Part shown: positions 21,288 to 42,694 of the stretch, piece after piece
Layout of the letters: every line of letters starts with the position of its first letter
Numbering within the stretch: the stretch's first letter is position 1
Assembly (NCBI GenBank): GCA_026391075.1
Contig: JAPLES010000003.1
Span: 1 to 62,346 of the forward strand
Direction of reading: 5' to 3'
Length of the DNA stretch: 62,346 bases
Origin: Bacteroidota bacterium
Lineage (GTDB): Bacteria; Bacteroidota; Bacteroidia; Chitinophagales; LD1
Notes under the pieces: generated by a model
Database searches by the model: none
What the model saw: the letters and a program-made list of their open reading frames with translations, nothing else
What the model was told of the DNA's origin: nothing
Translations under genes and position numbers: made by a program

Positions 21288-21851
21288 TCAATGCAGGACT
21301 TCCTCAATCGCTTTCACATACCACTCATGTTCTAACTGCTGAACTTTGGCTGAAAGTGTTTCGGTGGTATCATCAGAAGTAATAGCCACTTTTTTCTGCA
21401 ACAGAATTTCTCCATCGTCATAAACTTCATTCACGTAGTGAACGGTGATTCCTGTTTCAGATTCTTTATTGGCAAGAACAGCTTCGTGAACCTTTATGCC
21501 ATACATTCCCTTGCCGCCATGTTTTGGCAAAAGCGCAGGATGAATGTTGACAATCTTCTTTGGAAAATTTTGCAACAGAAACGCAGGAATCAATTGCAAA
21601 AATCCTGCAAGCACAATCAAATCTGTCTTTTGAGCATTCAGCAACTTCATCATTATTTCTTCTTTGTTCAACGAATCTTTATTGATGATTGCTGAAATAA
21701 TTTTGTGTTCGTGCGCAATCTTCAACACACCTGCCGAAGGATTATTGGTAACCACCAACACCACTTTTATGGTGGGGTGATTTTCAAAATGCTCAATTAT
21801 AGCTTTGGCGTTTGTTCCTTTGCCGCTCGCAAAAATGGCGATGTGTTTCAT
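21288..21851 (-). CDS. purN: Phosphoribosylglycinamide formyltransferase
   Basis: PurN transfers a formyl group from 10-formyl-THF to GAR in purine synthesis. The 187-residue length is normal. The phosphate-binding loop is SGKGTN (9-14); the formyl-transfer triad is N102 and H104 in NIHPALLPKHGGKGMYG, and the aspartate near 145 in the VYDDGEIL segment, where the family usually has DEGPI. It precedes purH on the same strand, separated by a short heptamer repeat, and is followed upstream by the giant secreted protein on the same strand with a 21-base gap. Confidence 0.93.
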   Translation of the reverse strand: MKHIAIFASGKGTNAKAIIEHFENHPTIKVVLVVTNNPSAGVLKIAHEHKIISAIINKDSLNKEEIMMKLLNAQKTDLIVLAGFLQLIPAFLLQNFPKKIVNIHPALLPKHGGKGMYGIKVHEAVLANKESETGITVHYVNEVYDDGEILLQKKVAITSDDTTETLSAKVQQLEHEWYVKAIEEVLH

Positions 21852-21872: not shown

Positions 21873-24800
21873 TTATTTCTGCAGAATGAATTTCCTCACC
21901 GTCTTCTCTTCATTATAAGTTACCCGAATAAAATATTCAGCGGGCAACATCAATCCTGTTGGAATCTCGAAATCAGTTCTTCCTTCGGGCAAATCCAATT
22001 CTGTTTTAGGAACAACAAGATGCCCAAGTACATCAGCAATTTCTATGGCTACCTTTCCTTCCTTCGGCAAAATAATTCCAAGGGTTGATTGATTGAATGC
22101 GGGATTAGGTGAAGGACCAACTAATTGAATGGTTCCTGTAAGCGATGCGCATTGACGGTTGTTATCAATCCGTGTTTCGGTTTCGCCATGGTTCACAGTT
22201 TTCGCTTCAACGCACACAAACGAATTTGCTCTCGAAGCGCTTGAAACAAACTGTGCGGTGAAGGTGTATTGCATTACTTGTCCCGAAGGAAGAACGCCAT
22301 TCCAATCTTCTGTAATCAATCCGCCAGTGCCGAGCGTTGCGTATAGATGTATATGTGTGATAGCGCGAGTACCTACGTTACTCATAAGCGTTTTAATTGC
22401 TACCAATACTGAGCCGTCTGTTTGTGTTTGTGAAGTTGCTTCAACCACATCAACCGACAAATCCAAATCAGTGTGCGAGACATAGAAAGTTTGTGCACTG
22501 CTGTTTGTGCATCCAAAATCGGAAGAAACAGTCAACACAATATTGAACGAATCGTTAGTAGTGTATGTATGTGATGTATTCGCAGCAAATGAATGCGCAG
22601 AGCCATCACCAAAATTCCAATCATAACCTGTGGCACCGCTACTGTGATTGGTAAGCGTTATATCAACAGGCGCTTCGCCATACAACGGAGCCATTGCAAA
22701 TGTCGACACAGGATTTGGATGCACCTGAACAGTTTTGGTAATGGAATCTTTACAACCACTATAAGTGGTTACTAAAAGTTTCACCGAATAATTTCCTGTA
22801 TCAGCAAAATAATATTGCGGAGAAAGAACATGATGGAATAGACTTCCATTAATATTCCAATCGCGGAACTGAATTGATTCGCTTAGCGAAAGGCTACTGT
22901 CAAGTGGCGTGTAATTCAAATCTTCGCACAGCGAAAGATTGGTGAAGTTGGCAATCGGATTTTGTACAATCAAAATTTGTTTAGCCACCGTATCGGTACA
23001 GCCAATCGCATTTTCAATTGTAAGTTTTACCGGATATAAACCCGAGACTAAATAACGATGTGTGGGGTTTTGAAGTGCTGAGAAAAAACTTCCATCGCCA
23101 AAATTCCATTGCCAACCCACCACCGAAAACGAATTAGTGATATCAACAAATTTTGTAGAGTCGCCAAGGCAAATGTTTAGAAAATTAAAATCGGCATGAA
23201 GTGCAGGAAAAACTTCTACTGCACTTACCACGCTATCCACACAGCCTTGATTGGTAGTTACTACTAATGTTACAAGTACATTACCCTGTGTAGGAAAATT
23301 GTAGCTAACGTTTGACGTGTTGAATACATTAGTTTGATCAATTCTCCATAGCCAGTTTGTTACACTATCAGGCGGCAACAAACTACTTTCATCTAGAAGT
23401 TGCGATGAGTTTCCTGCACAAATAATTCCGGGATAAGAAAGCCGAGCTACCGGTTTGGCGTGAACCGAAATGTTTTTGACTGCTACACCTGTGCAGCCGG
23501 AATCGGTGAATAAAATCAGTGTAACACTATAATCTCCGGGAGAAGGAAAAGCATGAAAAGGGTTTTGTAATAACGAACTAGTGTTATCTCCAAAGTTCCA
23601 ATTCCATTGATGAATGCTATCGGGCAAAACAGGAATAGTGATATCTGTAAAACCTGTTTGCTGGCCATAGCAAGCAATGCCCGAAGTAAAATCACCAATC
23701 GGTGCGGTGCCTTTAATAGTTACGTTCACTATATCGCTAGTGCTACATCCATAAATATCTGTAACAGAAACAGAATAATTTCCTGCAGAAGCGATAGTGA
23801 TAAATGTTGTAGTTGCTGCGGTTGACCAAAGCACCAGTGAAGGCGGATAGTTGCCTGTGTTAATAGCAAGATCGTTGCCAATGCACATTAGGGAATCCGT
23901 AGGTAAAACAGAAAGTAGCGAAATGGAATCAACGTGAACTGAAGTGGTATCGGTCAATAAAGAACAGCCGCCTACATCAGTAATTAAACAAGAATAATTT
24001 CCCGTTGTATCTTTTTGTACCGTGTAGGTAGTTAATCCATCACTCCATAAAAATGTATAGCCACTTGCAGACGAAAGAAGAACAGGGTGAACATTTACAG
24101 GTTGCCCTAAACAAATAGTTGTATCAACCGGACTCATAGCCGTGTAAGGCATAGTAACATTGATGGCATCGGTGCTCGTGCGGTCAAAAACATCCGTAGC
24201 GGTAACCGAATAAATTCCAGTTCTATTTACGCTAATACTAGAGGACGTTTCGCCATTCGACCATAAAAATTCTTTGAACCGGTTAGTGGCATCAATCGTA
24301 ATTGGGCACAAACTATAAAGTTGAATGGTATCGGGACCCAAATTGACCGCAGGAGAATATTTGTTGTAGATATAATTTTCAACTTGACCGCGTTCTATTG
24401 CCGACAAACTGCTTTTATAAATAATTAGCTCAGCAAGTTCTCCGCTAAAAAAACTATACCCGCTTATCAACTTACCAATTGAATAGTTTTGGTTTACAAA
24501 TGTTCCGCTTAGCGCAGGTGCTGTACCGGTTGCCATGAGAGAACTGTTTTTATAGATTTCTACATTGGTATTAATTGTTTTTATGACATCAGACAAAAAG
24601 TACGAATTAGGTATCACCGATTCCTTCAAGACGGTGGCCATGTTTCTAAATTCCATAAATGAACCACTTTGTGTTGCCCATAAAAACATACCTGTAGTTT
24701 CAGTTCCGGTAGAAAAAATAGTTCGGTTTCCACTGGCTGCGTTGGCTTTGCCCACCACAAACAAACTCATCGACCCATTTTCTAATTGCTGAATAAGCCC

Positions 24801-27800
24801 TCCAGCAAATTCATCGTTACTACCATCAAATTGCAAAGCCGGCTTCACCAATTCAAAGGGATTCGTCAATTGGGCTTGTTTGTTTGGGTCTAACTGCAGC
24901 GCATGTAAATTATTTCCGCTTTGGTCATTCCATTGGCTAACTTTTCCGGCATTTTGAGTAATACCCAAATCGGCTGCTAACCATAAAGCAAGGTTGGGTA
25001 AAAAAGATGGTTCAAAAAGAGTAAACGTATTCACCACCGATTCGCTGAAATCGTTACAAACATTGAAAGCCCTTACCTTCCAGTAAAACACCGGATTGTT
25101 GCTTAGCACCGCACTGTATTGCGTAGCCGTAATTCCATTGATAACTATTGGAGATAAGAACGATGCGTCAGTTGAAATGTAAAGCGAATAACTGCTAGCG
25201 TTTAGAGTCGGTAGCCAGCTAAAATTAATATTGGCAGACCCTGCTTGAAAATTGTTGACAGGACTTTGCAGATTAACAATCTGCGGTTGAGGTGCGCTTG
25301 GCACTACTTGCAGGCTATTGGTTATTGAATTGGAACAACCATTGGTGGCAGTAACTGTTAGTGAAACAGAATAATTTCCGAACGTGCTAAATAAATGTTG
25401 TGGATTTTGTGTACTTGCGTGCGTTGTTCCATCTCCAAAATTCCAATCCCATTGGTTAATATTTTCAGCAATGGGGGCAGTGCTTAAATCGGTAAACAAA
25501 TATGGATTGCTCACGCATGCCAGCGTAGGTTGGAACGCAGCTGTGGGAATTGGTTTTATTAAAACCTGTTGACTGGTATAATTTAAACATCCGGCACTGG
25601 TAGTTACACTTAGCGTGACCACGTAATTGCCCGTATCGGTGTAGCTATAAGTAGGGTTAGCAATAGAAGCAATTCCACCATCTCCAAAATCCCACGAGTA
25701 TCCTGTAATAGCCGAAGTGTCTGTTGACACACTGCTATTCTGCGGTACATAATCAAGTCCTAAACAAAAAGAACCTCCGGTAAAAGTTACATTGGGTGTA
25801 CTTCCTGTTTTAGTAATGTGAATAGTATCGTAGCCTTTACATCCAATAGCATTTGTAACAGTTACAGAATAATTTCCTGAATCGGGCACAACCAAATAAA
25901 CGGTAGATGCCCCAGTTGACCATTGAAATTGAAAACTGTCCCATCCAATGGTAGGTGCTTTTAGCCCAATTAAATTTCCCGAACACATGCTGGTATCGCT
26001 CCCCAATGAAACCACATTTTCGAAAGTATCTATTGCTAGCGTAATCGTGTCGGAAAATGCTGCGCAGTTGCCGTACGAAACTTGTACCGAATAATTTCCG
26101 CTTGCGCCTGTTTGAATGGAAGAGGAAGTTTCTCCGGTGCTCCAATCAAATGTGTACCCTGCTAGAGAAGGCAATTGTGTTTGCAACTGCAGTATATTAC
26201 CCAAACAAATTGTAGTGTCAGAAACGGTAAGGTTGATGTTTGGAAAAGTGACCACAATCGTATCTAAACTAACTCTCCCAAAAATATCGGTAACCGCTAC
26301 CGAGTAAACACCGCTTCGATTTACGTTAATAGTAGCAGTAGTTTCATTTGTTGACCACAAGTAATTTTTGTAACAGTTGCTGGCATTCAACTGCACCGGA
26401 CAAAACCCTGCACTAACAGTTATGTCGGGACCCAAGTGAACAGGAGAGCTATACTTGTTGTATAAATAATTTTCTACTTGCTGCTGTGCCGCGGGGTTAA
26501 GTGCAGTGTTATACAAAATCACTTCAGCAATTTCACCACTAAAGTTTTGATATACCGATGCCAATTTTCCTAATTGATATTTAGCGGTGTCTAAAAAAGG
26601 TCCAGCATACGCAGCACCTTTTGCACCAAGCTCCACGCCATTTCTGTAAATCGTGTCGCCCACCCCAATGTTCTTTTTCACACTGAATAAATAATACTCT
26701 TGAGCCGTTGAATTTCCACCGGCAAGAATTTGCGTAGCATTTCTAAATTGAACTACTGCTGAAGTATGCCACAGGAACATATTCTGGTCGTTGCCTATTG
26801 AAAAAATGGTTCGGTTACCAACGATTACGTTTGGTTTAGCCACAATGAATAAACTTAACGAGCTGGTGCCAATTCCTGGAATAGGGGTGCCGTACAAAAT
26901 GTCGTTAATGCCGTCAAAAAGCAATGCAGGTTTTCCGCAAAGCTCAGGTGGAAATTGAAGGCTGGGTGCTGTGCCCAAATTATTTACTGCATCAAAGGCA
27001 TGTCCGCTTTGGTCGCTCCATTGTGTAACAGCACTGCCACTTAATGCAATTCCGGTATCTGCTTTTAACCACAAAGCAAGCCCCGATAAATCGGCAGGCA
27101 GAAAAATAGTAAATACACGTTTATCAGATTCTGATGTTGCATTACAAATATTATAGGCTACTACTTTCCAATAAAAAACTTGGCTGCCACTTACATTGGC
27201 CGCGTATTGTGTAGTGTAAATATTGTTGAAAATAACAGGCGCAGTAAACAACGAATCTGTAGCGATGAGAAGGGAATATTTAACCGCATTTTGAGCCGGT
27301 GACCAAATGAAATTTATCGTTTGGCTCGAGGCCTGATAATTATCCTGAGGTTGTACCAATTCTGTAATTTGTGGTTGAGCGTAATTGGCAACTACGTTTA
27401 AATTATTTTGAATTGTATCCATACAGCCATTGGTGGCGGAAATAATTAGAGTCACAGAATAATTATTTGAACCGCTATAAATATGCGAAGGGTTTTGTGC
27501 TACTGATATGGCGGAGGCATCACCAAAATTCCAATTCCAAGAGTTTATACTTTCGTTCAAAGGAGCTAGGCTTAAATCGTTGAACTGATAACCGTTATTG
27601 ATACATGCAGTGGTAGTTTGAAAAATAGCTACAGGATTGGGCTTCACAATTACCTGATGGGTTGCCGAAGAGGAGCATCCAGCACTGGAGGTAACAGAGA
27701 GCGATACATTGTAAGTGCCCGTTACAGAATAATTGTACGTTGGGTTTGCAATACTGGCTACTCCTCCATCGCCAAAGGACCATTCATAATTGCTAATAAG

Positions 27801-29294
27801 TCCAGCGGTAGTGTTGGATGGATTGTAAGAATCTCCTAAACATAAATTTGCACCGCTAAAGGTTACGGTAGGTGCTGTACCTACCACCGTTACCGCTATG
27901 GTATCTACGGCACTGCAGCCATTTGCATTGGTAACAGTTAAGGTATATGTATTTGTGGAAGGCAGTACGAGTAAACTATCGGTGCTGTTATCTGACCAAA
28001 GAAATTGTAAACTATCCCAACCGTTTGCAGGAAATTGCAACCCAATAGTGTTACCTGCACATACATTATTTAAATCGGGTCCTAATGAAACTGTGGTTGA
28101 AAAATTATCGATAGAAAAAACTTGGGTATCTGAAACGGCAGAACACAAGGAGTCGTCTGTAACTGTTACAGAATAATTGCCCCCGTTGCTTATACCAATT
28201 GTAGGTGTGGTTTGTGCGTTCTGCCACTGAAAAGAATAACCAATTGTTGAGGGAAGATAAGTACCAATGGTAATTACTTCGCCAGCACAAATGGTAGTGC
28301 TGGCCGCACTTATATTTACATTTGGGTAAGTAATCATAATATCATCCGTACTCTGCCTTCCAAAAATATCGGTTGCAGTAACTGAGTACAATCCACCCGT
28401 GCTAACACTTATAGAGGACGAAGTGGCTCCTGTTGACCACAAATAGTTCGTGAAGCAATTTCCCGCTGTAATGGTTGTTGCGCAAAACCCATAAGGTATA
28501 GTGATATCGGCTCCCAAATTAACTGGAGCCGCGTACTTGTTTTCTAAATATGTTTCTACTTGTTGCCGTTGTGCAACGGTAAGCGCACCCTTGTATACGA
28601 TAATCTCTGCAATTTCCCCGTTTAAAAAAGTACCGCTAGCCGCTGCTACTCGTCCCAAAATATAGTTGGCATTGGTAAAAGACCCTATAGCCAATGCCGC
28701 GGTGGAGTGTTTTGCTAATGAGGTGTTCTTGTAAAGGTCAACGCTCACACCAAAATCCTTTACAACACTTATCAAATTATAAGCATTGGAAACAAAGTTA
28801 TAATTAATCGGGGTGGTTAATCCGGTAACTGCGTTACCATTATTTTTAAACTCGTAGCCAGCGCCATTGTGCCACATGCGCATACCTTGAGTTAAGGATG
28901 ACACCGAAAAAAAAGCTCTACTTCCGGTTATAATGTTGGTTCGGCCTATTATGAATAAACTCATTGAACCACTTTCCAAATTAGGAATTTGTAGTCCGTC
29001 TAATTCGTCATTTTGCCCGTCAAACTGTAATGCGGGTTTTCCACATAACTCAGCGGGAAAAACAAGTCGAGGTTGAAATGTGCCGTTGCTTTGGCTGGCA
29101 TCGAGCCCACTGCCGCTTAGGTCGGTCCATTGGCTTACATAATCAACTCCCTGGATAGCAATTCCAGTATCAGCAGATAACCACAAGGCCAAGTTGGGAA
29201 TATTTGAAGGAGAAAAATTTTGCGAAAAAATTTTGTTGCTCATTAAAAAAGCAGTCAAAAGAAAAACGCAGCGAAGGGTAATTTTCATTCTCAT
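21873..29294 (-). CDS. Giant multidomain secreted protein with T9SS C-terminal sorting domain
   Basis: 2473 residues. It starts with a signal peptide (MKITLRCVFLLTAFLMSNKIFSQ; two nearby ATGs at 29294 and 29288 are possible). Three supermodules of about 700 residues follow, beginning near residues 28, 732 and 1428. Each starts with a LamG/concanavalin-like domain (ALWL-x-AD-x-G, SxWxDxSG, ALQFDG, GEIAEIIVY, VENYLYNKY). The first two continue with Ig-like units (YLWSTG, YSVTVTD), two PKD domains (WxFGDG) and an FN3-like unit (SQVFYWKVVAYN). The third runs into more PKD domains (to about 2270). A CARDB-like segment precedes the type A sorting domain at about 2395-2473 (GPSPNPAF ... EYFIRVTYNEEKTVRKFILQK). 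It is exported by T9SS and anchored on the cell surface; adhesion or glycan binding is the likely role. Confidence 0.92.
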   Translation of the reverse strand: MRMKITLRCVFLLTAFLMSNKIFSQNFSPSNIPNLALWLSADTGIAIQGVDYVSQWTDLSGSGLDASQSNGTFQPRLVFPAELCGKPALQFDGQNDELDGLQIPNLESGSMSLFIIGRTNIITGSRAFFSVSSLTQGMRMWHNGAGYEFKNNGNAVTGLTTPINYNFVSNAYNLISVVKDFGVSVDLYKNTSLAKHSTAALAIGSFTNANYILGRVAAASGTFLNGEIAEIIVYKGALTVAQRQQVETYLENKYAAPVNLGADITIPYGFCATTITAGNCFTNYLWSTGATSSSISVSTGGLYSVTATDIFGRQSTDDIMITYPNVNISAASTTICAGEVITIGTYLPSTIGYSFQWQNAQTTPTIGISNGGNYSVTVTDDSLCSAVSDTQVFSIDNFSTTVSLGPDLNNVCAGNTIGLQFPANGWDSLQFLWSDNSTDSLLVLPSTNTYTLTVTNANGCSAVDTIAVTVVGTAPTVTFSGANLCLGDSYNPSNTTAGLISNYEWSFGDGGVASIANPTYNYSVTGTYNVSLSVTSSAGCSSSATHQVIVKPNPVAIFQTTTACINNGYQFNDLSLAPLNESINSWNWNFGDASAISVAQNPSHIYSGSNNYSVTLIISATNGCMDTIQNNLNVVANYAQPQITELVQPQDNYQASSQTINFIWSPAQNAVKYSLLIATDSLFTAPVIFNNIYTTQYAANVSGSQVFYWKVVAYNICNATSESDKRVFTIFLPADLSGLALWLKADTGIALSGSAVTQWSDQSGHAFDAVNNLGTAPSLQFPPELCGKPALLFDGINDILYGTPIPGIGTSSLSLFIVAKPNVIVGNRTIFSIGNDQNMFLWHTSAVVQFRNATQILAGGNSTAQEYYLFSVKKNIGVGDTIYRNGVELGAKGAAYAGPFLDTAKYQLGKLASVYQNFSGEIAEVILYNTALNPAAQQQVENYLYNKYSSPVHLGPDITVSAGFCPVQLNASNCYKNYLWSTNETTATINVNRSGVYSVAVTDIFGRVSLDTIVVTFPNINLTVSDTTICLGNILQLQTQLPSLAGYTFDWSTGETSSSIQTGASGNYSVQVSYGNCAAFSDTITLAIDTFENVVSLGSDTSMCSGNLIGLKAPTIGWDSFQFQWSTGASTVYLVVPDSGNYSVTVTNAIGCKGYDTIHITKTGSTPNVTFTGGSFCLGLDYVPQNSSVSTDTSAITGYSWDFGDGGIASIANPTYSYTDTGNYVVTLSVTTSAGCLNYTSQQVLIKPIPTAAFQPTLACVSNPYLFTDLSTAPIAENINQWDWNFGDGTTHASTQNPQHLFSTFGNYSVSLTVTATNGCSNSITNSLQVVPSAPQPQIVNLQSPVNNFQAGSANINFSWLPTLNASSYSLYISTDASFLSPIVINGITATQYSAVLSNNPVFYWKVRAFNVCNDFSESVVNTFTLFEPSFLPNLALWLAADLGITQNAGKVSQWNDQSGNNLHALQLDPNKQAQLTNPFELVKPALQFDGSNDEFAGGLIQQLENGSMSLFVVGKANAASGNRTIFSTGTETTGMFLWATQSGSFMEFRNMATVLKESVIPNSYFLSDVIKTINTNVEIYKNSSLMATGTAPALSGTFVNQNYSIGKLISGYSFFSGELAELIIYKSSLSAIERGQVENYIYNKYSPAVNLGPDTIQLYSLCPITIDATNRFKEFLWSNGETSSSISVNRTGIYSVTATDVFDRTSTDAINVTMPYTAMSPVDTTICLGQPVNVHPVLLSSASGYTFLWSDGLTTYTVQKDTTGNYSCLITDVGGCSLLTDTTSVHVDSISLLSVLPTDSLMCIGNDLAINTGNYPPSLVLWSTAATTTFITIASAGNYSVSVTDIYGCSTSDIVNVTIKGTAPIGDFTSGIACYGQQTGFTDITIPVLPDSIHQWNWNFGDNTSSLLQNPFHAFPSPGDYSVTLILFTDSGCTGVAVKNISVHAKPVARLSYPGIICAGNSSQLLDESSLLPPDSVTNWLWRIDQTNVFNTSNVSYNFPTQGNVLVTLVVTTNQGCVDSVVSAVEVFPALHADFNFLNICLGDSTKFVDITNSFSVVGWQWNFGDGSFFSALQNPTHRYLVSGLYPVKLTIENAIGCTDTVAKQILIVQNPIANFTNLSLCEDLNYTPLDSSLSLSESIQFRDWNINGSLFHHVLSPQYYFADTGNYSVKLLVTTYSGCKDSITKTVQVHPNPVSTFAMAPLYGEAPVDITLTNHSSGATGYDWNFGDGSAHSFAANTSHTYTTNDSFNIVLTVSSDFGCTNSSAQTFYVSHTDLDLSVDVVEATSQTQTDGSVLVAIKTLMSNVGTRAITHIHLYATLGTGGLITEDWNGVLPSGQVMQYTFTAQFVSSASRANSFVCVEAKTVNHGETETRIDNNRQCASLTGTIQLVGPSPNPAFNQSTLGIILPKEGKVAIEIADVLGHLVVPKTELDLPEGRTDFEIPTGLMLPAEYFIRVTYNEEKTVRKFILQK

Positions 29295-29337
29295 AGAAGA
29301 CAGCTGTTCTTGTCTCCCGAAAGTAGGATTAATTTCT

Positions 29338-30579
29338 TCAACGCTCTCCCCTTATCAACGCCTCATAAACCTGTGCATACTTTTCAACACCTTTTGAAAG
29401 AGAATAAGTGGCATCGGCTCCCTTGGTGATAGCGATGGAATTAAAAGTCGAAGTATCTACCATCATTTTTTTAATTACATCCCGGTACCCTATCGTAGAA
29501 AATTCTCGAACCAAAATTCCTGCTTGCAAACCTTCGGTAATGCTAGCTACATCACCTACACCAGCGTTGCAAATGTGCGGAATGCCCATGCCCATAATTT
29601 CGCCCTGCTTGGTTGGAGAGGAGGCTTGCTTAGAAAAAACTGGAAGAATGAAAAACAGATTCCAATTAGAGAGAGAAAGAAAAGTGGGAACCTCCTTGTG
29701 TTTTGCGGGAGAAATCAAGAACGCATGAGCAGGCATATTTTTTTTCGCGGCTTTGCTTAAAATACTTTCATCTGTTTCGTTGGTGATGAATAAAAATTTT
29801 GCGTCAGGCTTTTTTTCTAATAAGCATTGGAAGAAGTCTAGCATCTCGTCCAACATATACCAGGTGCCTATACTTCCTAAGTAACTTAAAACAAATTCAT
29901 TTCCTGTGAGTTGAAATTTGTTGCGCAGTTCTGCTTTCAGCTTTTCGTCTACACTGTTTTGCGAAAACAAATTCAAATCGGCACAGCAAGGAATAACTTG
30001 AATGGGTATAGGTTGATTAGGAATTTCATTTCGCGCGTGTAAAATTTTCTTTCCCGCTTCGGTCAAGCTAATGGTGTAATCGGCTTCGCTTAAAAAATCT
30101 ATTTCTTTCTGCTTGAAGAAATTGAAAATGCATTTGTAAAGTGGATTGCTCAAGTTCCAAATCTTTCCATCCACTCGTTCATCGGCATAAAAGCCGCGCA
30201 TGTCAAACAAAAATTTTGTGTCGAACTTTTTCTTCATTGCCAAACCAACAAATGCAGCTATGTAACTGCGGCAATGAACGAGGCTGAAATTTTTTTCTGC
30301 ATGAAGTGCAAATGCTTTTTTATGCATTCGCCATAAATCATAAATGGTAGAAAGCACAGGTGGTTTCTTTGTATAAGCAAGCGGAACCCAATCAATATTG
30401 CTTTGCTGTAATCGCGCAGAAATTTCTTTCGAAAATTTTTCAAAGCGTGCTGCCTTTTCAAAACTAACCAGCGTGAATCGGTAACCCAGTTTCGATAAGC
30501 CTTCTATATAAGGTATCACTTGACTTTGCCCGAGCGGGTCGGTCATGCCATCGTAGCTGAGAAAGAGCACTTGGGTCAT
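29338..30579 (-). CDS. Glycosyltransferase family 4-like
   Basis: 413 residues, predicted GT-B fold. The N-terminal half starts MTQVLFLSYDGMTDPLGQSQVIPYIEGL, typical of one GT4 branch in surface-polysaccharide clusters. The C-terminal donor-binding half has LSYLGSIGTWYMLDEML (about 232-248) and SPTKQGEIMGMGIPHICNAGVGD near 320-345, the latter covering the EX7E-like region (E at GEIMG). It is a cytoplasmic or membrane-associated enzyme adding a sugar from an NDP donor; sugar unknown. It lies only 7 bases after the asparagine synthase gene and 43 bases before the giant T9SS gene, all on the minus strand. Confidence 0.85.
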   Translation of the reverse strand: MTQVLFLSYDGMTDPLGQSQVIPYIEGLSKLGYRFTLVSFEKAARFEKFSKEISARLQQSNIDWVPLAYTKKPPVLSTIYDLWRMHKKAFALHAEKNFSLVHCRSYIAAFVGLAMKKKFDTKFLFDMRGFYADERVDGKIWNLSNPLYKCIFNFFKQKEIDFLSEADYTISLTEAGKKILHARNEIPNQPIPIQVIPCCADLNLFSQNSVDEKLKAELRNKFQLTGNEFVLSYLGSIGTWYMLDEMLDFFQCLLEKKPDAKFLFITNETDESILSKAAKKNMPAHAFLISPAKHKEVPTFLSLSNWNLFFILPVFSKQASSPTKQGEIMGMGIPHICNAGVGDVASITEGLQAGILVREFSTIGYRDVIKKMMVDTSTFNSIAITKGADATYSLSKGVEKYAQVYEALIRGER

Positions 30580-30586
30580 TGATGAT

Positions 30587-32437
30587 TTATTTCTGATTAT
30601 TGTACAGCCAATGATGAAGTAGTATCAACACCCAAATTCTATTGTAAAGAAAGTCTTCGCCTTTTTCAAAACGCGCCACAAGCGATTTTACTTTTTCAAA
30701 TTTTACAGCTCCGCATTTTTCAACCACTTCTTCGCTCAAATATTTTTCAAGCAAGTAATGCAAATCTGTTTTCAGCCATTTCGCCAACGGAATAGAGAAG
30801 CCCCATTTCGGTCTCTCGAAAAATTCTTTCGGTACAAAATCATACAACACTTCTTTCAATAAGTATTTCGCCACACCATTTTTCATTTTCAAATCTTCGG
30901 AAAGATTCAAGGCAAATTCTACTACCCGATAATCTAGAAACGGAGTACGTGCCTCCAGCGAAAATTGCATACTCGCAATATCTACCTTCGTGAGCAAATC
31001 ATCTTTCAAATAATATTTCACGTCAAACAAAGCTTGCTCTTCTGCGGCAGATAATTTTCGTTTCGTTTTAAAATTCTCGTCAAACAAAATTTCATGTTTG
31101 AAATTGTCTTGTAACAAATCATTCAATTCATCTTCACTAAAAAAATATTGTTCTTGCGAAAAAATATGGCTCTTCTTATGCGCTTCGGTTTTATAATTAA
31201 AGACCTGTGCACCGCGCTTGTAACGCTCGCCCATTTGCGCCACCGATAAAGCAATTGGCTTTCTAAAAAATTTCACCAACGGATTATCCAATCGCTTCGC
31301 CCAATTGTAAGCACCATAGCCCATAAACAATTCATCGCCACCATCGCCACTCAATGTCATGGTTACATATTGCCTCGCCAATTTTGAAACCAGCATGGTT
31401 GGAATACCCGATGAATCGGCATACGGCTCATCATAAACCGTCATCATTTTATCCATCAAACCGAGTGCATCGTTTTCGGTTACTATAAATTCGTGATGCT
31501 CCGTGCCGAGATGTTTCGAAACCTTTTTGGCGTACTCGCTCTCGTTATACTTCGCTTCTTTAAAACCAATTGAAAATGTTTTTACCGGATGCGAAGAAAC
31601 ACTTTGTGCAATGGCGGTTACTGCGCTCGAATCAATTCCTCCACTCAAAAAAGTGCCAAATGGCACATCACTTATCATTCGATAACGTACCGATGAAGTG
31701 AGCAACTCTTTCAATTCTTTTTTGGCTGAATCAAAATCTGTAGCAACAGTGGTGGTGATTTTTTCTTCGGGCTTCCAGTAGTGAACTACTTCAAAGCCGT
31801 GTTTGTCAACCAAGGCAAAACTGCCTGCCGGCAACTTGTAAATAGATTGATAAATGGTTTCCCGTTCAGGAATATAGCCAGCATATAAAAATGTGGAAAC
31901 CACACGCTTGTTGAGCGGTATATTTTGTGCCACAAAGTCAATAGCCAGCAACGATTTTATTTCAGAGCCAAATGCAAAATTGTTTTCAGCATAGAAATAA
32001 TACAGCGGTTTTACACCCAATCTATCGCGAAAGAGAAACAGCTTTTCTTTCTGCTTATCGTAAACAGCAATGGCAAACATGCCGTTGAGCAAATGCACAA
32101 ATTCAGTTCCGCGTTGTTCAAATGCTTCGAGAATAATTTCTGTATCGCTATTGGTGCGCGGTGAAATATTCAATTGCTTGGCTATCTCCTTAAAATTGTA
32201 AACCTCTCCGTTAAACACCATCACATATCGTTCGCTCTGCGAAAACATGGGTTGATTGGCGGCCGTACTCAAATCAATAATGCTCAATCTGCGATGACCT
32301 AATCCGCAAGTTTTTTCTTGGTTCAAAAAAAAACCTGCCGCATCGGGTCCGCGATGGCTCATCACGTTCGTCATGGAATGCAAATCAGTTTCGCTGAATT
32401 GTTTCGTGAGAGAATAAAAACCAGAGATGCCACACAT
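30587..32437 (-). CDS. asnB: Asparagine synthase-type amidotransferase (left copy)
   Basis: 616 residues. The N-terminal class II glutaminase domain begins with the catalytic C2 (MCGISGFYS) and includes MSHRGPDAAG, GHRRLSIIDLS and MVFNGEVYNF. The C-terminal synthetase domain has the ATP pyrophosphatase loop LSGGIDSSAVTA (about 263-274) and SGDGGDELFMGYGAYN. All key residues for ammonia production and adenylation are present. In polysaccharide clusters such enzymes (for example WbpS/WbpG-like roles) often amidate uronic acids rather than make asparagine; context favours this here, sequence alone does not prove it. It forms a block with the GT4 gene downstream and the wbpB gene upstream. Confidence 0.88.
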   Translation of the reverse strand: MCGISGFYSLTKQFSETDLHSMTNVMSHRGPDAAGFFLNQEKTCGLGHRRLSIIDLSTAANQPMFSQSERYVMVFNGEVYNFKEIAKQLNISPRTNSDTEIILEAFEQRGTEFVHLLNGMFAIAVYDKQKEKLFLFRDRLGVKPLYYFYAENNFAFGSEIKSLLAIDFVAQNIPLNKRVVSTFLYAGYIPERETIYQSIYKLPAGSFALVDKHGFEVVHYWKPEEKITTTVATDFDSAKKELKELLTSSVRYRMISDVPFGTFLSGGIDSSAVTAIAQSVSSHPVKTFSIGFKEAKYNESEYAKKVSKHLGTEHHEFIVTENDALGLMDKMMTVYDEPYADSSGIPTMLVSKLARQYVTMTLSGDGGDELFMGYGAYNWAKRLDNPLVKFFRKPIALSVAQMGERYKRGAQVFNYKTEAHKKSHIFSQEQYFFSEDELNDLLQDNFKHEILFDENFKTKRKLSAAEEQALFDVKYYLKDDLLTKVDIASMQFSLEARTPFLDYRVVEFALNLSEDLKMKNGVAKYLLKEVLYDFVPKEFFERPKWGFSIPLAKWLKTDLHYLLEKYLSEEVVEKCGAVKFEKVKSLVARFEKGEDFLYNRIWVLILLHHWLYNNQK

Positions 32438-32506
32438 TTCTTATTGATAAATGATTATTGATTATTGAAATGCAGAACAGCCATTTTCGCGTTTCTGGTG
32501 CTGAAT

Positions 32507-33475
32507 TTATTTTTTTGAAAAAGGATGTTTGCTGATTTGCAATTTGCAAAGCGGATGATACTCGCCTTTCAATCCTATTGGCTGTGCTTCGCGAATTTCA
32601 TTAGCAATTCGAATACTTGCCAGCGCATCGCTCACACCAAAACCATTTCCTTTTAAAATTTCTTGATAACTGCGCGTGTGCAAATCGGCAAAGCCATCGC
32701 TAAACTCAATTTCTTCTCCTTCTAAAGTCATGCTTCTATACGTGCGCATGTTTTTTTGTTTAGCCGCTTCAGGTAATGTGTCGGCATTGATGCTCAAAAA
32801 CCAACGCACGCGTGCTCTCGAAAATTCCATGTAACCAGCCGCGCGGTCGTGTGTATGCAAATGCACAACATTCTGTTTCACATCGCCAAATAAAAAACTG
32901 AGCATATCGAAGAAGTGAATGCCTATGTTGGTTGCTATTCCACCGCTCTTGCTCACATCACCTTTCCAACTCGTATAATACCAATTGCCACGTGAGGTGA
33001 TATACGTTAAATCGAAATCGTAAATCTTATTCGGGTCACCTGCCGCAATTTTTTCTTTCAACTTAATAATGTTTGGATGCAAGCGCAACTGCAAAATGTT
33101 ATTGATTTTCTTTCCCGTTTCTTTTTCGAGCGCTATCAAAGATTCTGCGTTGGAAGTTTTAAGCACAAGCGGCTTTTCACAAATAACGTTTGCGCCAATA
33201 CGCAAACCAAAACGAATGTGCGAGTCGTGCAAATAATTTGGCGAGCAAATAGAAACGTAATCGAGCGGAGAATTTTTCCTTGTCAATTTATCAATGTGCC
33301 TATCGAAGCGTTCGAACTCTACAAAAAAGGCAGCATCGGGAAAATAGGAATCCATGATACCAACACTATCGAAAGGGTCATACGCAGCAAGCAAAACGTT
33401 GTCGGTGTCTTTTATAGCTTTTAAATGTCGCGGTGCTATGTAACCAGAGGCACCAATCAATGCGAAATTTTTCAT
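32507..33475 (-). CDS. wbpB: WbpB/WlbA-like UDP-GlcNAc-uronate 3-dehydrogenase (Gfo/Idh/MocA)
   Basis: 322 residues. The NAD-binding start MKNFALIGASGYIAPRHLKAI and the stretch LDYVSICSPNYLHDSHIRFG are nearly those of Pseudomonas WbpB and Bordetella WlbA, as I recall them; E100-K101-P102 is the catalytic EKP motif. The region DLTYITSRGNWYYTSWKGD and GIATNIGIHFFDML (about 165-200) is also family-specific. WbpB oxidises UDP-N-acetylglucosaminuronic acid at C3; a WbpE aminotransferase then aminates it on the way to UDP-2,3-diacetamido-uronic acids. No WbpA, WbpD or WbpI homologue is seen in the window. In Porphyromonas the Wbp pathway supplies the sugar that links T9SS cargo to A-LPS. Confidence 0.85.
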   Translation of the reverse strand: MKNFALIGASGYIAPRHLKAIKDTDNVLLAAYDPFDSVGIMDSYFPDAAFFVEFERFDRHIDKLTRKNSPLDYVSICSPNYLHDSHIRFGLRIGANVICEKPLVLKTSNAESLIALEKETGKKINNILQLRLHPNIIKLKEKIAAGDPNKIYDFDLTYITSRGNWYYTSWKGDVSKSGGIATNIGIHFFDMLSFLFGDVKQNVVHLHTHDRAAGYMEFSRARVRWFLSINADTLPEAAKQKNMRTYRSMTLEGEEIEFSDGFADLHTRSYQEILKGNGFGVSDALASIRIANEIREAQPIGLKGEYHPLCKLQISKHPFSKK

Positions 33476-33698: not shown

Positions 33699-34757
33699 AT
33701 GAAGCAGTTGCTGAAATATTTTTATCGTTACTTTTTAGGGCTATCTGTTTGGCAAAAAAACAAGCGCTACTTATCCATTGTTTCCAACCAGCCGACTAAA
33801 AGCGTTTACATAGAACTGTCTGAAAACAAATATGAACGGTATCTGTATTTATTTATAAAATTTTTTTTGCTTGAAGGATATACCGTTTACATCAAAAAAA
33901 ACTATCGCTTCCTTGGCGATTTTGATGTTTATCCAAAATTGTTGTTCAAAGAAAAAAACTTAGTGTTCACTAATTTCCCAGCAACAAACGCCACATTAAA
34001 ATTTTCTGACTGTGCAAAATCTGGTTACGTGCAATTAGGTTACGATTACTTCAACAAGAATAAAGAGGATTCTTTTTTTTATGTGCCCATGGCGCTTCAC
34101 CCTAACTTATATTTTCATAAGTATTGGAATACAACCGTGGCGTTAGAAGCGAAAAGGTTGAACAGCCTTTTTTTTGCAGGTAATTTTGATGCGCAGCAAT
34201 ATCATCAAATAGAAGATATGGGCAAATTCAAAGTGGCTTCGCGGCTGCAGTTGATTGATCAATTGAGAGAAAGTAACCTTGCTGCTTTTCCCAAAACGGC
34301 AGAAGAGTTTCGCGCAGCCATGCAGCAATGTGCAGTAATAATAGTTGACACCAAATATTTTGGAATTGAAGCAAAAGAACTGCGACCTTGCCTAGCGCAA
34401 TTCAATTTTTTTCTTGCCTGTCCCGGTATCAGCATGCCGTTTTCGCACAATATTATAGAGGCTATGTCGTGCGGCACCATTCCGGTTATCGAAAGAGAAT
34501 ATGCACAACTATTTTCTCCTCCGCTTAAGCATTTATATAATGCAATAATTTTTGAAAACGCTGCAGCATTAAACAAAACAGTAGAACTAGCTATTCTTCT
34601 GGAATCAGAATTGGTGTCCACTATCAGGCAAAATGTTGTTCAGTATTACACCAACTATTTAAGTCCGCAAAAGGTGGTGGAGTCGCTGGTAAACAAAAAG
34701 CCGAACCGTGTAATGCTACTGGCAGAAGCACATAGCGTGCGCTTAATGAAAAATTAA
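33699..34757 (+). CDS. Putative glycosyltransferase of unassigned family
   Basis: 352 residues. I do not recognise a named family in the first 200 residues. The C-terminal part has PFSHNIIEAMSCGTIPVIE (about 246-264), which looks like the donor-binding region of GT-B enzymes (exostosin/GT47- or GT4-like, with E in the NIIEAMSCG motif). It begins MKQLLKYFYRYFLGLSVWQ, hydrophobic and possibly membrane-associating, but not a clear signal peptide. Its position within the polysaccharide cluster supports a glycan role. Its stop codon TAA at 34755-34757 shares three bases with the stop of the convergent gene that follows. Confidence 0.6.
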   Translation: MKQLLKYFYRYFLGLSVWQKNKRYLSIVSNQPTKSVYIELSENKYERYLYLFIKFFLLEGYTVYIKKNYRFLGDFDVYPKLLFKEKNLVFTNFPATNATLKFSDCAKSGYVQLGYDYFNKNKEDSFFYVPMALHPNLYFHKYWNTTVALEAKRLNSLFFAGNFDAQQYHQIEDMGKFKVASRLQLIDQLRESNLAAFPKTAEEFRAAMQQCAVIIVDTKYFGIEAKELRPCLAQFNFFLACPGISMPFSHNIIEAMSCGTIPVIEREYAQLFSPPLKHLYNAIIFENAAALNKTVELAILLESELVSTIRQNVVQYYTNYLSPQKVVESLVNKKPNRVMLLAEAHSVRLMKN

Positions 34758-36055
34758 TTGCTGAGAAGGTTTGTCTTTAATAAATCGGCAAATATTTTTG
34801 CCTGCGTTCCTCTTGAATATTTTTTGTAGTTGTCGTTGGTTTCGGCAAAGGTTATTCTTGCGTGCTTAAAATTTTCAAACTCTTGCTTCAAAAAATCAGC
34901 TACGTCCTCAGCATTATTTGCCGCAAATCCTCCATTGGTTTCTTGTAGCAATTTTTGCAAAACCCCTTCGTCATTTTCAACCAGCAATATTTTTTGTTTG
35001 GCAGCCAAATAATCAAACACTTTAGCATTTAGCCAATCAGCACCCTTGCTAGAGAGGAGTAACAAGAGATTCGACTCGCACATTTTTTTTACCATTTGGC
35101 TATACGAAATTTTGGGAAGAGGAACCAACCAGGGTAACAATTCGGGTTTATAATTGATGAGTCGGCTAACTGAATTGGGTTGACCTAGCAAGCCGTAAAA
35201 ATGAACTTCAAAAATATTTTTCTGTACATTTTCTTTGTCAACAAATAGCAAAACTCCATCTAAAAACATTTCAAGATTTTGATGCGGATAGATCGTTCCT
35301 GCATAAGTGATAATAAATTTTTTAGCGCTCCGTTCCATTGCAGCAGTGTTTTGAAAATGCTTTTCATCAAAGCCATTATACACAACACGAACATCGGTAG
35401 TGGCAAACAGTTTTTGAAGTTCTTGTGCGTAAGAAGGAGCGGCTGTGGTAATGAATGATACACCTTGCAAATATTTTTTTTCAAGTGTTCTGAAAAACAA
35501 ATTTCTAATTTTTTGCAATAGGCTTAATTGATAATGACCTTGGTTAGTTGTCCAGCCATCGCGATAGTCGGCCACCCATTTAATTTTGTATTTTTTTGAA
35601 AGCAGGTGCGCGTATCGAAATAAAATAAAAGGTTCTCCGGTGGCAATAATAAAATCGGGTTTGTTTGCTAGAATTTGCTTTTCTGCGGCTACATAAATTT
35701 CACTTTTACTATCAAACCAAAACATGAGGTACTCCAAAAATGTATACAGCAGCGAAAGTATTTTTCGCAACCACACCAGTTGATTAAACCCAAAAGTGAG
35801 CAACAGCCGATCGCGCAAATTTGGTTTAAAGGGAACTCTTATCACTTTATTTTTTAGCAAATCAGTTTCCACGCTAACTTCAACCGCAGTTGGTTTTACA
35901 TAATCTTCGGGGGTGTTCATCGCCTCTTGCCAGTGTCGCGTAACTATTGTTACCGCAATTCCCGAGTCGGGCAAGTAGTTCAACCAACTGTATGGGCGTT
36001 GCCCACCAATAGAAATAAGTGGGGGAAAATCGTAGCAGAGAATTAATACTTTCAC
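34754..36055 (-). CDS. Glycosyltransferase, GT4-like
   Basis: 433 residues, GT-B fold. The acceptor half starts MKVLILCYDFPPLISIGGQRPYSW, typical of GT4 enzymes of the WbuB/WcaI-like type. The middle has IIATGEPFILFRYAHLLSKKYKIKWVADYRDGW (the PxxADYRDxW signature of this branch, near 135-170). The donor half has ITYAGTIYPHQNLEMFLDG and LLLLSSKGADWLNAKVFDYLAAKQKILLV (about 340-370, with the K-V-F-D-Y-L-A region where the EX7E glutamate is replaced by a KxxDYxA pattern typical of the branch). It adds a sugar to the growing glycan on the cytoplasmic face. It converges with the gene on its left, sharing TTAA, and diverges from the gene on its right by 35 bases. Confidence 0.82.
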   Translation of the reverse strand: MKVLILCYDFPPLISIGGQRPYSWLNYLPDSGIAVTIVTRHWQEAMNTPEDYVKPTAVEVSVETDLLKNKVIRVPFKPNLRDRLLLTFGFNQLVWLRKILSLLYTFLEYLMFWFDSKSEIYVAAEKQILANKPDFIIATGEPFILFRYAHLLSKKYKIKWVADYRDGWTTNQGHYQLSLLQKIRNLFFRTLEKKYLQGVSFITTAAPSYAQELQKLFATTDVRVVYNGFDEKHFQNTAAMERSAKKFIITYAGTIYPHQNLEMFLDGVLLFVDKENVQKNIFEVHFYGLLGQPNSVSRLINYKPELLPWLVPLPKISYSQMVKKMCESNLLLLLSSKGADWLNAKVFDYLAAKQKILLVENDEGVLQKLLQETNGGFAANNAEDVADFLKQEFENFKHARITFAETNDNYKKYSRGTQAKIFADLLKTNLLSN

Positions 36056-36090: not shown

Positions 36091-37326
36091 ATGAAAACCT
36101 TGATATTCTTCACCGCTCAGTTTCCATTGGGTACCAGCGAAACGTTTATTGAAAGTGAATTTCCTGTCCTCGCCCAATCGTTCGACAAAATTTTTATTGT
36201 TACGAACGATTTATATTCAGCAGAAAAACGAAAAATTCCAGCACATGTTCAGGTAGTTCGTTACCCCTATGCTTCTTCTTTTCTTTCAAAAATTTTATCA
36301 CTCGCCAATTTTTTTTACTTGCAAAAAGAAATTCGTTTTATGCGCAGGCGAGACATTGCGCTGAACAAAGCCACCCTTTCTTCGTTGGTGGCCACTTACA
36401 CTAAAGCTACAGAAGTAAATTCTTTTCTCGAAAAATTTGTTGCTGAAAACAAAATTGACCTTTCAAAGCTCACGCTGTATTCCTATTGGATGAACGATAT
36501 GGCGGCAGGCTTGGCAATGTTCAATTACAAAAATCCGCAGGTAAAAACGCTTTGCCGCGTCCATGGTTGGGACTTGTATTTCGAGCGACACACGCCCAAC
36601 TATTTACCGCTTCGAAATTTTATTGTTGGAAATTTAACGGCAACGTTTTGCATTTCCGAAAATGGAAAAAACTATTTGGATGAATTGACCGCGAATAAGT
36701 TTTCTCAAAAAATAAAGCTGGCGCGGCTGGGCACCTTCAACACAAACAATGTTTTGTCGCCAAGTAATTCTGGCAAACTAAAGCTGGTAAGTTGCTCTAA
36801 CATAGTTCCACTCAAACGCGTTCATCTAATTATTGAAGCACTGGCTTCAATAGATGATTTAGAAATAGAGTGGGTCCATTTTGGTGTGCATTTTTTGAAA
36901 GATGAAATCGAAAATTTAGCACACGAAAAACTTTCAGGCAAAAAAAATATTCATTACAAATTTGGTGGGCAGGTAACAAACGAAGCGTTGTTACACTACT
37001 ATTCTACCAATGCTATTGATGCTTTTATCAACGTAAGCGAAACGGAAGGATTGCCTGTTTCTATCATGGAAGCCAATTCGTTTGGCATACCAGCCATTGC
37101 CACCAACGTGGGCGGCACGGCTGAAATTGTGCAACACCAAGTGAATGGGTTTTTGTTGAAGGCAAACTGCACTGTCGGAGAAATTGTAGAAACAATAAAA
37201 GTTCTTTACAATCTACCTTCGGAAAAGAAAAGCGCGTTGAGAAAAAATGCTTTTGAAATTTGGAACAAAGAATTTAATGCCGAAAACAATTATTGTGCTT
37301 TCGCAAAAACTATTCGCTCTCTTTAA
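36091..37326 (+). CDS. Glycosyltransferase, GT4-like (colanic-type)
   Basis: 411 residues from the ATG at 36091; upstream in-frame codons overlap the divergent gene and are not a natural start. The start MKTLIFFTAQFPLGTSETFIESEFPVL and CRVHGWDLYFERH (about 155-167) are typical of WcaL/AmsK-like GT4 enzymes. The donor-binding half has LVSCSNIVPLKRVHLIIEAL and ETEGLPVSIMEANSFGIPAIATNVGGTAEIV (about 330-360) with the EX7E motif intact (E...E at EGLPVSIME). It transfers an unknown sugar. Its stop codon shares TTAA with the convergent gene on its right. Confidence 0.87.
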   Translation: MKTLIFFTAQFPLGTSETFIESEFPVLAQSFDKIFIVTNDLYSAEKRKIPAHVQVVRYPYASSFLSKILSLANFFYLQKEIRFMRRRDIALNKATLSSLVATYTKATEVNSFLEKFVAENKIDLSKLTLYSYWMNDMAAGLAMFNYKNPQVKTLCRVHGWDLYFERHTPNYLPLRNFIVGNLTATFCISENGKNYLDELTANKFSQKIKLARLGTFNTNNVLSPSNSGKLKLVSCSNIVPLKRVHLIIEALASIDDLEIEWVHFGVHFLKDEIENLAHEKLSGKKNIHYKFGGQVTNEALLHYYSTNAIDAFINVSETEGLPVSIMEANSFGIPAIATNVGGTAEIVQHQVNGFLLKANCTVGEIVETIKVLYNLPSEKKSALRKNAFEIWNKEFNAENNYCAFAKTIRSL

Positions 37327-38474
37327 TCCTGCGCATAAAGATTGAGCAGTTTATCCACGTAATTCACTATGTCAAACTGCCGCGCAAAATCAATTGCTCC
37401 TGCCGAAAGTTTATCGTAAAGTTTTCTGTCCGTAAAAAGCAGTTCTATTTTATCTGCAAAAACTTTTGCGCTTTGCTCGTGTAGCATAAAGCCGTTTTCA
37501 TTGTCGTTTACCAAGCCTAGATTACCGCGCGCATCTAATGCTACTGCGGGCAAACCTGTTGCCATCGCTTCCAGCAGCACCAAACCAAACGCCTCACTGG
37601 TAGATGTATGCACATACATATTCGCTGTCGAATAATAATTCTCTACACGCTCCACGTTGCCTGGCATTAAAATTATTCCCGTCAATTTTTTCCGCTCCAC
37701 TTGTTCTTTCACCACTTCATAAGTAGGACCTTTGCCCAACAAAACTATTTCAACCGATAATTTTCGTTGCAACAATTCTTCAGCAATAGCAATAAAAAGT
37801 TGTTGATTTTTCAGCGGAATAAAACTACCCACATTCACAATTCTTATTTTATCGAAGTTTCTTTTTCTGTTAACAGTACTGAACAATTTAAAGTCAATGG
37901 CATTGTGCTGTTGAAAAACATTTGGCTGCAAAGCTACGGGCAAAACCGATTCGAAATATTTTTTGGTATGCGCTGAAATGGCGATGAACTTATTGTTACT
38001 CTTCAAATAGTTTTTAAGCAGATGTTGCTTCTCGTAAAATTCAGTCAAGAGTTTTTTGCTAAAAAAAGTTTGCTGTGAAAAATTTCTGAACTGCGACATG
38101 TTATCGTGGCAGTGGGTGAAGTATTTAATGTGGTTATAAATTTTTTCTCGCGAAAAAATTTCCGCAGCAAATAGATGCGAGTGAATAATATCTGGCTGAA
38201 ATTCTTTTACTGCAAGTTCAAAATCCCGTAGGTCAACTTTGTTTTTGCGCAGTAAAGAAAGTTGAACAGTAGAACTTGTTTTTCGAATTGGAATATCGGC
38301 TGTCTGATAACTGTATTCATTTTCGCCTGACAACACCAGTAATATCGCTTGGTGTTCTTTGCGCAAATTCACTTCCCTACAAATATCTATCGCTATTCGT
38401 TCGGCTCCTCCTTTTCTAAGATTGGGTATGATGTAAAGAATTTTCAAAAAATGTTTTTTAGCAAGTGGTCGCAA
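37323..38474 (-). CDS. Glycosyltransferase, GT4
   Basis: 383 residues. The N-terminus KILYIIPNLRKGGAERIAIDICREV is the classic GGAER start of GT4 enzymes; the donor half has IVNVGSFIPLKNQQLFIAIAEELL (about 205-228), LMPGNVERVENYYSTANMYVHTSTSEAFGLVLLEAMATGLPAVALDARGN (about 280-330) with E and E of EX7E in place. This is the most canonical GT4 of the cluster. It is followed, 7 bases upstream, by a GT2 gene on the same strand, so 40412 to 37323 is probably one transcription unit of three glycosyltransferases. Confidence 0.9.
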   Translation of the reverse strand: MRPLAKKHFLKILYIIPNLRKGGAERIAIDICREVNLRKEHQAILLVLSGENEYSYQTADIPIRKTSSTVQLSLLRKNKVDLRDFELAVKEFQPDIIHSHLFAAEIFSREKIYNHIKYFTHCHDNMSQFRNFSQQTFFSKKLLTEFYEKQHLLKNYLKSNNKFIAISAHTKKYFESVLPVALQPNVFQQHNAIDFKLFSTVNRKRNFDKIRIVNVGSFIPLKNQQLFIAIAEELLQRKLSVEIVLLGKGPTYEVVKEQVERKKLTGIILMPGNVERVENYYSTANMYVHTSTSEAFGLVLLEAMATGLPAVALDARGNLGLVNDNENGFMLHEQSAKVFADKIELLFTDRKLYDKLSAGAIDFARQFDIVNYVDKLLNLYAQD

Positions 38475-38481
38475 TTTTGCT

Positions 38482-39393: not shown

Positions 39394-39398
39394 CTTGA

Positions 39399-41661: not shown

Positions 41662-41699
41662 TTTCCTTACCTACAAACCAAACTTTACCCGGTAAACCA

Positions 41700-42626: not shown

Positions 42627-42694
42627 TTTCAATGTTCGAAAATAAATGTTTTTTTAGCCTTGTAACACTTCACGCTATTCAATCCAGAAAAAAA

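Follow-up and report, generated by a model that had tools for sequence, protein, structure and literature searches.

Does a giant cargo gene of the type IX secretion system (T9SS), lying near a sugar-nucleotide gene of the wbpB type, tell us that the glycan made there anchors the cargo at the cell surface? The question is raised by the window, a stretch of 62,346 bases that makes up one entire contig (JAPLES010000003.1, C34 in our numbering) of a 3.6 Mb genome in 91 contigs from the Bacteroidota (assembly GCA_026391075.1; Chitinophagales, LD1). A first-pass annotation had reported a 2473-residue open reading frame (ORF) with a T9SS type A tail at 21873-29294 and a strong WbpB homologue at 32507-33475, and had read their proximity as a possible counterpart of the linkage of cargo to A-type lipopolysaccharide (A-LPS) in Porphyromonas. 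Both genes are present as described. The tail matches TIGR04183 with 26.7 bits (cut-off 23), and the best PDB matches of the second product, of 322 amino acids, are the WbpB chains 3oa2 (383 bits, residues 1-309) and 3o9z (324 bits), the next best chain reaching 45 bits; judged by these scores, the homology certainly exceeds chance. We consider it probable that the region from 29.3 to 58.4 kb is a surface-polysaccharide locus in which wbpB, an amidotransferase gene and a glycosyltransferase gene of family GT4 make an ordinary residue of the glycan, the cargo being a bystander. Overall, the earlier observation is partly confirmed and its interpretation partly supported.

A conserved module of wbpB, an amidotransferase and a glycosyltransferase

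All genes concerned lie on the minus strand. Transcription runs from wbpB through the amidotransferase and GT4 glycosyltransferase genes to the cargo, these four being separated by 69, 7 and 43 bp (Table 1); purN and purH come next. The annotation had the cargo gene directly followed by the glycan cluster, which holds in plus-strand coordinates only; by transcription wbpB comes first and the cargo fourth. Likewise, the cargo gene and wbpB do share a strand, but they are not immediate neighbours because the amidotransferase and GT4 genes lie between them.

The neighbourhoods of wbpB were compared among relatives, using ORFs that were called mechanically (at least 90 aa) and pruned by length. 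A WbpB match was present in 54 of 99 genomes, and 50 loci from 49 genomes were used (two loci from G087; G052, G076, G093 and G097 were left out, as was G024, which has no whole WbpB ORF). In G024, which belongs to the same family, the wbpB match (C83:11838-12796, locus L137) is split over two frames and lies beside purN. The next gene after wbpB on the same strand encodes an amidotransferase in 26 of the 50 loci, with four genera and three families represented. The full triple, with the GT4 gene (GT_a) in third place, is found in 14 of 18 same-genus loci (own locus included) and in all six loci of another genus in the same family; the wbpB-amidotransferase pair recurs in families f19 and f21 (one genus in each), and in the two loci of family f22 the two genes stand together but turned round. 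Exceptions within the genus are L072, which lacks GT_a, and L077, which has another amidotransferase; contig ends cut L064, L066 and L068. The amidotransferases form a clade of 29 entries (support 97/97), 28 of which lie within three genes of wbpB, while in the 29th (L065) an insert separates the two genes. The called start of GT_a overlaps the end of the amidotransferase gene in 13 of the 14 same-genus triple loci, the window having the 7-bp gap instead.

The amidotransferase (ASNB1) carries the N-terminal Cys2 of class II enzymes and the motif SGGIDSS, and its best NCBIfam model is TIGR03108 (520 bits, under the cut-off of 816.9). The margin by which TIGR03108 outscores the asparagine synthase model TIGR01536 is 45 bits for ASNB1 and 37, 42 and 12 bits for the clade members in L067, L087 and L141, as against -1 to 21 bits for four asparagine-synthase-like genes that do not belong to the clade (L082:12319, L077:8610, L131:3736 and position 58499 of the window); those of L082 and L077 likewise lie near a wbpB. 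P. gingivalis WbpS, P. aeruginosa WbpS and E. coli WbqG have been placed with the TIGR03108 family (Veith et al., 2020, PMC7468200), and it is a WbpS-type amidotransferase that amidates the linking sugar of P. gingivalis (PMC7468200). ASNB1 thus resembles the TIGR03108 enzymes, which include those of XrtA/PEP-CTERM systems, in its best model and its Cys2, and differs from them in its score below the cut-off; no exosortase was recognised in the window, no search aimed at one having been made.

Further genes of the pathway

The annotation had proposed a search of the genome for other Wbp genes and porU, and had held that the absence of every other Wbp-pathway gene would speak against it; genes of the WbpA type, WbpD, WbpE and PorU are all encoded. 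The genome has a single WbpB match at E <= 0.001, and the other three Wbp genes lie together on contig C48, within about 5.5 kb. The product of the WbpD gene (L018:11575-12156) has 217 bits to 3mqg, a lipopolysaccharide-biosynthesis acetyltransferase that we take to be Bordetella WlbB. The WbpE gene (L018:14493-15623) reaches up to 344 bits with WbpE chains, although another chain scores slightly higher (7b0d, named scyllo-inositol transaminase, 347 bits). A dehydrogenase of the TviB/WbpA type (L018:10177-11469) scores 495 bits with NF011729 (TviB), under the cut-off of 592, and 383 bits with the NDP-sugar dehydrogenase model TIGR03026, over the cut-off of 189.8; by these scores it appears to be of the enzyme type of WbpA, which falls short of that exact function. 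PorU matches NF033707 with 1291.8 bits (cut-off 420, profile positions 2-1095). The DegT gene of the window (55921) was considered as wbpE and not adopted, WbpE being matched by the gene on C48 instead.

Named database records gave 76 loci (4 of 80 had lost the WbpB ORF in length pruning). In these, genes were counted that stand no more than four genes from wbpB and have our own wbpD, wbpE or wbpA as their best match in the reference set (E <= 1e-8, at any identity); they occur in 42, 33 and 23 of the 76 loci, respectively, so these are the usual partners of wbpB. In the genus, a UDP-N-acetylglucosamine (UDP-GlcNAc) 2-epimerase of the WbpI type stands directly upstream of wbpB in L068, L070, L073 and L076 and two genes off in L065, and none is found in the window; its presence or absence likely switches the residue between a Glc and a Man form from one sister species to another.

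In the route that we propose, WbpA, encoded with WbpE and WbpD on another contig, would oxidise UDP-GlcNAc at C6 and WbpB would oxidise at C3, after which amination by WbpE and N-acetylation by WbpD would lead to UDP-GlcNAc(3NAc)A. From the carboxylate of this product the amidotransferase would make an amide (an amidated 2,3-di-N-acetyl hexuronate) and the GT4 enzyme would move the residue onto the glycan, so that the conserved edge of the locus would make and attach one residue. This residue would equal the core of SAGA, the linking sugar of P. gingivalis, without the amino-acyl exchange. Most likely the locus from 29.3 to 58.4 kb builds an exported surface polysaccharide of the O-antigen type with an ABC exporter, because exporter and sugar-tailoring genes (MBOAT, GT11, sulfotransferase-family and formyltransferase) share the locus with glycosyltransferases. 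The sugar structure, the order of the steps, the role of GT4, the route of export and the use of the sugar as an ordinary residue rather than a T9SS link are what we infer from these genes.

The cargo gene as a neighbour

The sorting tail of the cargo covers residues 2396-2472 (TIGR04183) and follows eight PKD_4 stretches and one Laminin_G_3 match; the motif LALWLxADxGI occurs three times, heading modules that look alike by eye, and the N-terminus is hydrophobic by eye. At least 150 TIGR04183 matches, all over the cut-off, were obtained from the genome (150 of 331 candidates scored), and the cargo of the window is absent among these 150 matches, the lowest of which has 37.4 bits. If the genome holds some 3,000 genes, as we estimate, roughly one gene in 20 or more encodes such a C-terminal domain (CTD). 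Finding such a gene next to any particular operon is therefore unremarkable.

Within the genus, cargo homologues share 35-67% identity (closed ones are 1179-2473 aa long), compared with 74-96% for the wbpB of the same loci, and the gap between GT_a and cargo varies from 24 to 653 bp, while amidotransferase and GT_a genes overlap or nearly touch. The triple is followed by other genes in L070, L074 and L075, and in L065 one 2-oxoglutarate (2OG) oxygenase gene stands between GT_a and cargo; purN comes after the cargo in all seven loci in which that side is visible. Outside the genus, CTD ORFs were counted in 106 loci with home-made hidden Markov models (HMMs) on the length-pruned ORFs, after frames shorter than 120 aa and frames truncated by the end of a locus had been dropped; L142 and L145, which share contigs with L064 and L079, were left out. 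Of the ORFs at most three genes from wbpB, 6 of 562 are of this kind, compared with 9 of 809 among the more distant ones; an earlier HMM gave identical numbers (some named and unnamed records may overlap in these counts). Directly beside wbpB the count is 3 of 198 (L130, L132 and L166), about background. Two of these are large CTD proteins (L132:10481-13912 and L166:2-9658), the former being a 28% match to the cargo of the window.

Accordingly, adjacency to the cargo does not hold up as a sign of coupling between glycan and cargo, and we reject it as evidence, given the abundance of CTD genes, the lack of enrichment outside the genus and the three loci with the triple and no cargo behind it. 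The cargo looks like an ordinary T9SS substrate, a bystander that part of one genus keeps between the module and purN; where it lies reflects synteny and is no evidence that it is the partner of the glycan.

Several observations weigh against the reading of an ordinary glycan residue with a bystander cargo. A cargo homologue directly follows GT_a in 9 of the 18 genus loci, and within the genus a CTD gene occupies the third position in 7 of 27 cases as against 0 of 196 elsewhere, so the link between wbpB and cargo is fixed in that lineage; the four co-directional genes, with their short gaps, may also form one transcript. The HMMs and the pruned ORF set behind the CTD test may miss tails. ASNB1 scores 475 bits with TIGR01536, over the cut-off of 267.1, and three further clade members likewise fall under the TIGR03108 cut-off and over that of asparagine synthase, so the enzyme could make asparagine or another amide. 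Only 5 of the 76 named-record loci have an amidotransferase within four genes of wbpB (one is a same-genus contig, the rest are distant matches); the association of wbpB with the amidotransferase therefore belongs to this part of the order. Finally, candidate genes of the VimA and VimE types exist in the genome.

A possible linking role for the sugar

The strongest alternative is that the sugar itself is the T9SS linker: PorU would attach type A cargo, at its cleaved C-terminus, to an amidated, amino-acyl-bearing residue that ends the O-polysaccharide, as in the A-LPS of P. gingivalis. We regard this as possible but doubtful. In P. gingivalis a pentasaccharide with SAGA at its end joins the cargo to the O-polysaccharide (PMC13086638), and a wbpB mutant fails to anchor its cargo (PMC11285876). 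Our genome combines PorU and a WbpS-like enzyme with all four Wbp enzyme types, and the module stays constant where the rest of the glycan locus varies, as a linker would be expected to do. The WbpI-type epimerase of the five genus loci recalls the Glc form of the linking sugar in P. gingivalis and its Man form in T. forsythia (PMC7468200). On the other hand, sugars of the WbpB type are ordinary O-antigen sugars elsewhere (PMC4031482), P. gingivalis itself scatters its Wbp genes (PMC13086638), and P. intermedia anchors cargo by a different linking sugar and does so without WbpB, WbpD, VimA and VimE (PMC11969387).

The distribution of PorU speaks in the same direction. In the 99 genomes (own genome included, counted by hand), PorU and WbpB occur together in 53, PorU only in 42, WbpB only in one (G094) and neither in three, which puts PorU in 95 and WbpB in 54. 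As 42 genomes have PorU without WbpB, PorU does not depend on WbpB; since PorU is nearly universal, the same table cannot speak for a link either.

The search for vimA that the annotation had suggested, which we extended to vimE, brought up genes of the right enzyme types, none of which is identifiable as VimA or VimE; on their sequences they are candidates. P. gingivalis VimA resembles the model TIGR03019, for which the best score in the genome is 20.7 bits (cut-off 260), reached by a FemAB-like gene on contig C85 (PF04339 36.9 bits, cut-off 27; PF13480 23.9 bits, cut-off 22). Contig C42 has overlapping genes for a GNAT (PF13527 35.1 bits, cut-off 25) and a polysaccharide deacetylase (PF01522 89.2 bits, cut-off 23.1); three Polysacc_deac_1 genes in the genome exceed the cut-off, this one included. 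On contig C3 a DUF7033 gene lies beside a GNAT-like gene. The linking reading draws on all three contigs, and also on other genera in which the wbpB locus contains a polysaccharide deacetylase (L080, L084, L085 and L086), the one in L086 being an immediate neighbour of a GNAT gene. Against it, glycan loci commonly hold GNAT and deacetylase genes, and the DUF7033 gene of C3 (E <= 1e-15) is about equally common with WbpB (47 of 54 genomes) and without it (36 of 45). Being present in 83 of 99 relatives and not following WbpB, it was not adopted as VimE; in four other Bacteroidia loci it stands, by eye, beside RadC- or WecB-like genes. Ten genes adjoining the triple in relatives were tested and proved to have other identities than VimA or VimE (three 2OG oxygenases, two glycosyltransferases, an acyltransferase, a methyltransferase, a sulfotransferase, a UDP-GlcNAc 2-epimerase upstream of wbpB and one unmatched), and ten genes farther off in four loci comprise four polysaccharide deacetylases, two GNAT and two GT2 genes, one weak match and one without a match. 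The recA-vimA neighbourhood, presumably the reference gene order of Porphyromonas, was not recognised by eye in six loci from a phylum-wide search. The DUF7033 and GNAT-like genes of C3 belong to a row (L058:57-8597) that continues, by eye, with a PorP/SprF-like gene and one for a large protein whose tail is type B-like, possibly a T9SS type B secretion and surface unit.

Taken by its enzyme content, a linking role is plausible, although we think it rather unlikely. A still bolder form, in which A-LPS-type anchoring extends beyond the oral Bacteroidales as one operon (3-dehydrogenase, amidotransferase and transferase) with a dedicated cargo and a Glc/Man linker switch, seems to us improbable. 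Very improbable, too, is a non-covalent pairing in which LamG-like (lectin-fold) modules of the cargo bind the neighbouring polysaccharide for surface retention or matrix building: the Laminin_G_3 match, the three motif copies and a co-directional order kept in half of the genus loci accord with it, but the cargo diverges far more than wbpB, three genus loci have other genes behind the triple, and LamG/PKD proteins are common among T9SS substrates.

Comparison with known systems

WbpS is not essential for cargo anchoring in P. gingivalis. With the Wbp/Vim systems of P. gingivalis and T. forsythia (A-LPS; SAGA) our genome shares WbpA-type, WbpB, WbpD, WbpE and WbpS-like enzymes, PorU and type A cargo. 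It differs from P. gingivalis in that wbpB has the WbpS-like gene as its direct neighbour, whereas the P. gingivalis genes are scattered (PGN_0613, 0168, 1236, 0002, 1234 and 1055-1056; PMC13086638), and in that the locus includes an exporter of the ABC type, a Wzy/WaaL route having been proposed for P. gingivalis (PMC13086638). VimA, VimE and VimF, moreover, are not established here. The wbp-wlb O-antigen loci of Pseudomonas aeruginosa and Bordetella likewise have the WbpB, WbpD and WbpE types, and a WbpI-type gene lies beside wbpB in some sister species; unlike in those loci, wbpB here is on another contig than wbpA, wbpD and wbpE, and an amidotransferase belongs to the unit. In the titles, abstract openings and passages of open-licence PubMed Central literature that were covered, no wbpB-wbpS-type operon beside a T9SS cargo gene is described; Wbp genes have already been recorded in Zobellia and Odoribacter (Shoji et al., 2014, PMC4031482).

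Other features of the locus

Table 1. Genes of the module, the cargo and the surrounding polysaccharide locus in the window
Feature	Position	Strand	Basis
purN, adjoining the cargo on its far side within the genus	21288..21851	-	Pfam Formyl_trans_N
2473-aa cargo with LamG-like module(s), PKD repeats and T9SS type A tail	21873..29294	-	Pfam, NCBIfam
GT4 glycosyltransferase (GT_a), third gene of the module	29338..30579	-	Pfam Glyco_transf_4, Glycos_transf_1
WbpS-like class II glutamine amidotransferase (ASNB1)	30587..32437	-	TIGR03108, TIGR01536, motifs, clade
wbpB, Gfo/Idh/MocA-family UDP-GlcNAcA 3-dehydrogenase, first gene of the module	32507..33475	-	Pfam GFO_IDH_MocA, 3oa2
GT4 glycosyltransferase (GT_34754)	34754..36055	-	Pfam
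Variable polysaccharide part: GT4, GT2, SDR epimerase-like, AKR-like, sulfotransferase-family and split TauD-family genes	37323..47378	both	
dTDP-4-amino-4,6-dideoxyglucose formyltransferase	47384..48202	-	NF005755, 310 bits (cut-off 238)
MBOAT O-acyltransferase	50303..51748	-	PF03062
ABC exporter ATPase, polysaccharide type	53810-55039	-	Wzt_C match below cut-off
ABC-2 permease of polysaccharide-type exporter	55048-55896	-	
DegT-family sugar aminotransferase	55921..57012	-	Best NCBIfam TIGR04427, below cut-off
443-aa membrane protein, GT-C-like model	57068..58399	-	No Pfam or NCBIfam match

In relatives, a homologue of GT_34754 often precedes wbpB, one or two genes upstream. Of the genes in the variable part, relatives keep some and lack others; the locus also encodes a GT11 enzyme. 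The TauD-family dioxygenase gene (43716-44484, plus strand) consists of two overlapping frames, 43716-44216 and 44179-44484, with PF02668 matched on the first, possibly through a frameshift or an assembly fault. Close to the contig start, a collagen-like repeat protein (PF01391) is encoded at 301-2157 on the plus strand. A scan for promoters and terminators was uninformative (40 promoter-like sites, 37.0 expected).

Homologues of the membrane protein at 57068-58399 are encoded close to wbpB in several other genera and families. An AlphaFold model of the protein (mean pLDDT 80) gave no match at E <= 0.001 in plain Foldseek, whereas a second aligner returned GT-C enzymes as the best matches, namely ALG12 (Z 16.5, 274 aligned residues, root-mean-square deviation 4.2) and ArnT (5f15, Z 15.3), with scores somewhat above the chance level for helical models. 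On this model, the product may belong to an undescribed family of glycosyltransferases that use lipid-linked sugars.

Implications

Two consequences follow for the biology of these bacteria. As PorU occurs without WbpB in 42 of the 99 genomes, wbpB is not a general marker of cargo anchoring in the order, and neighbourhoods of cargo and glycan genes are a poor sign of coupling in genomes with at least 150 CTD proteins. The T9SS linkers described, in the passages cited, for P. gingivalis, T. forsythia and P. intermedia differ from one another, and the conserved unit of wbpB, amidotransferase and glycosyltransferase in T9SS-rich relatives provides a concrete candidate sugar to look for.

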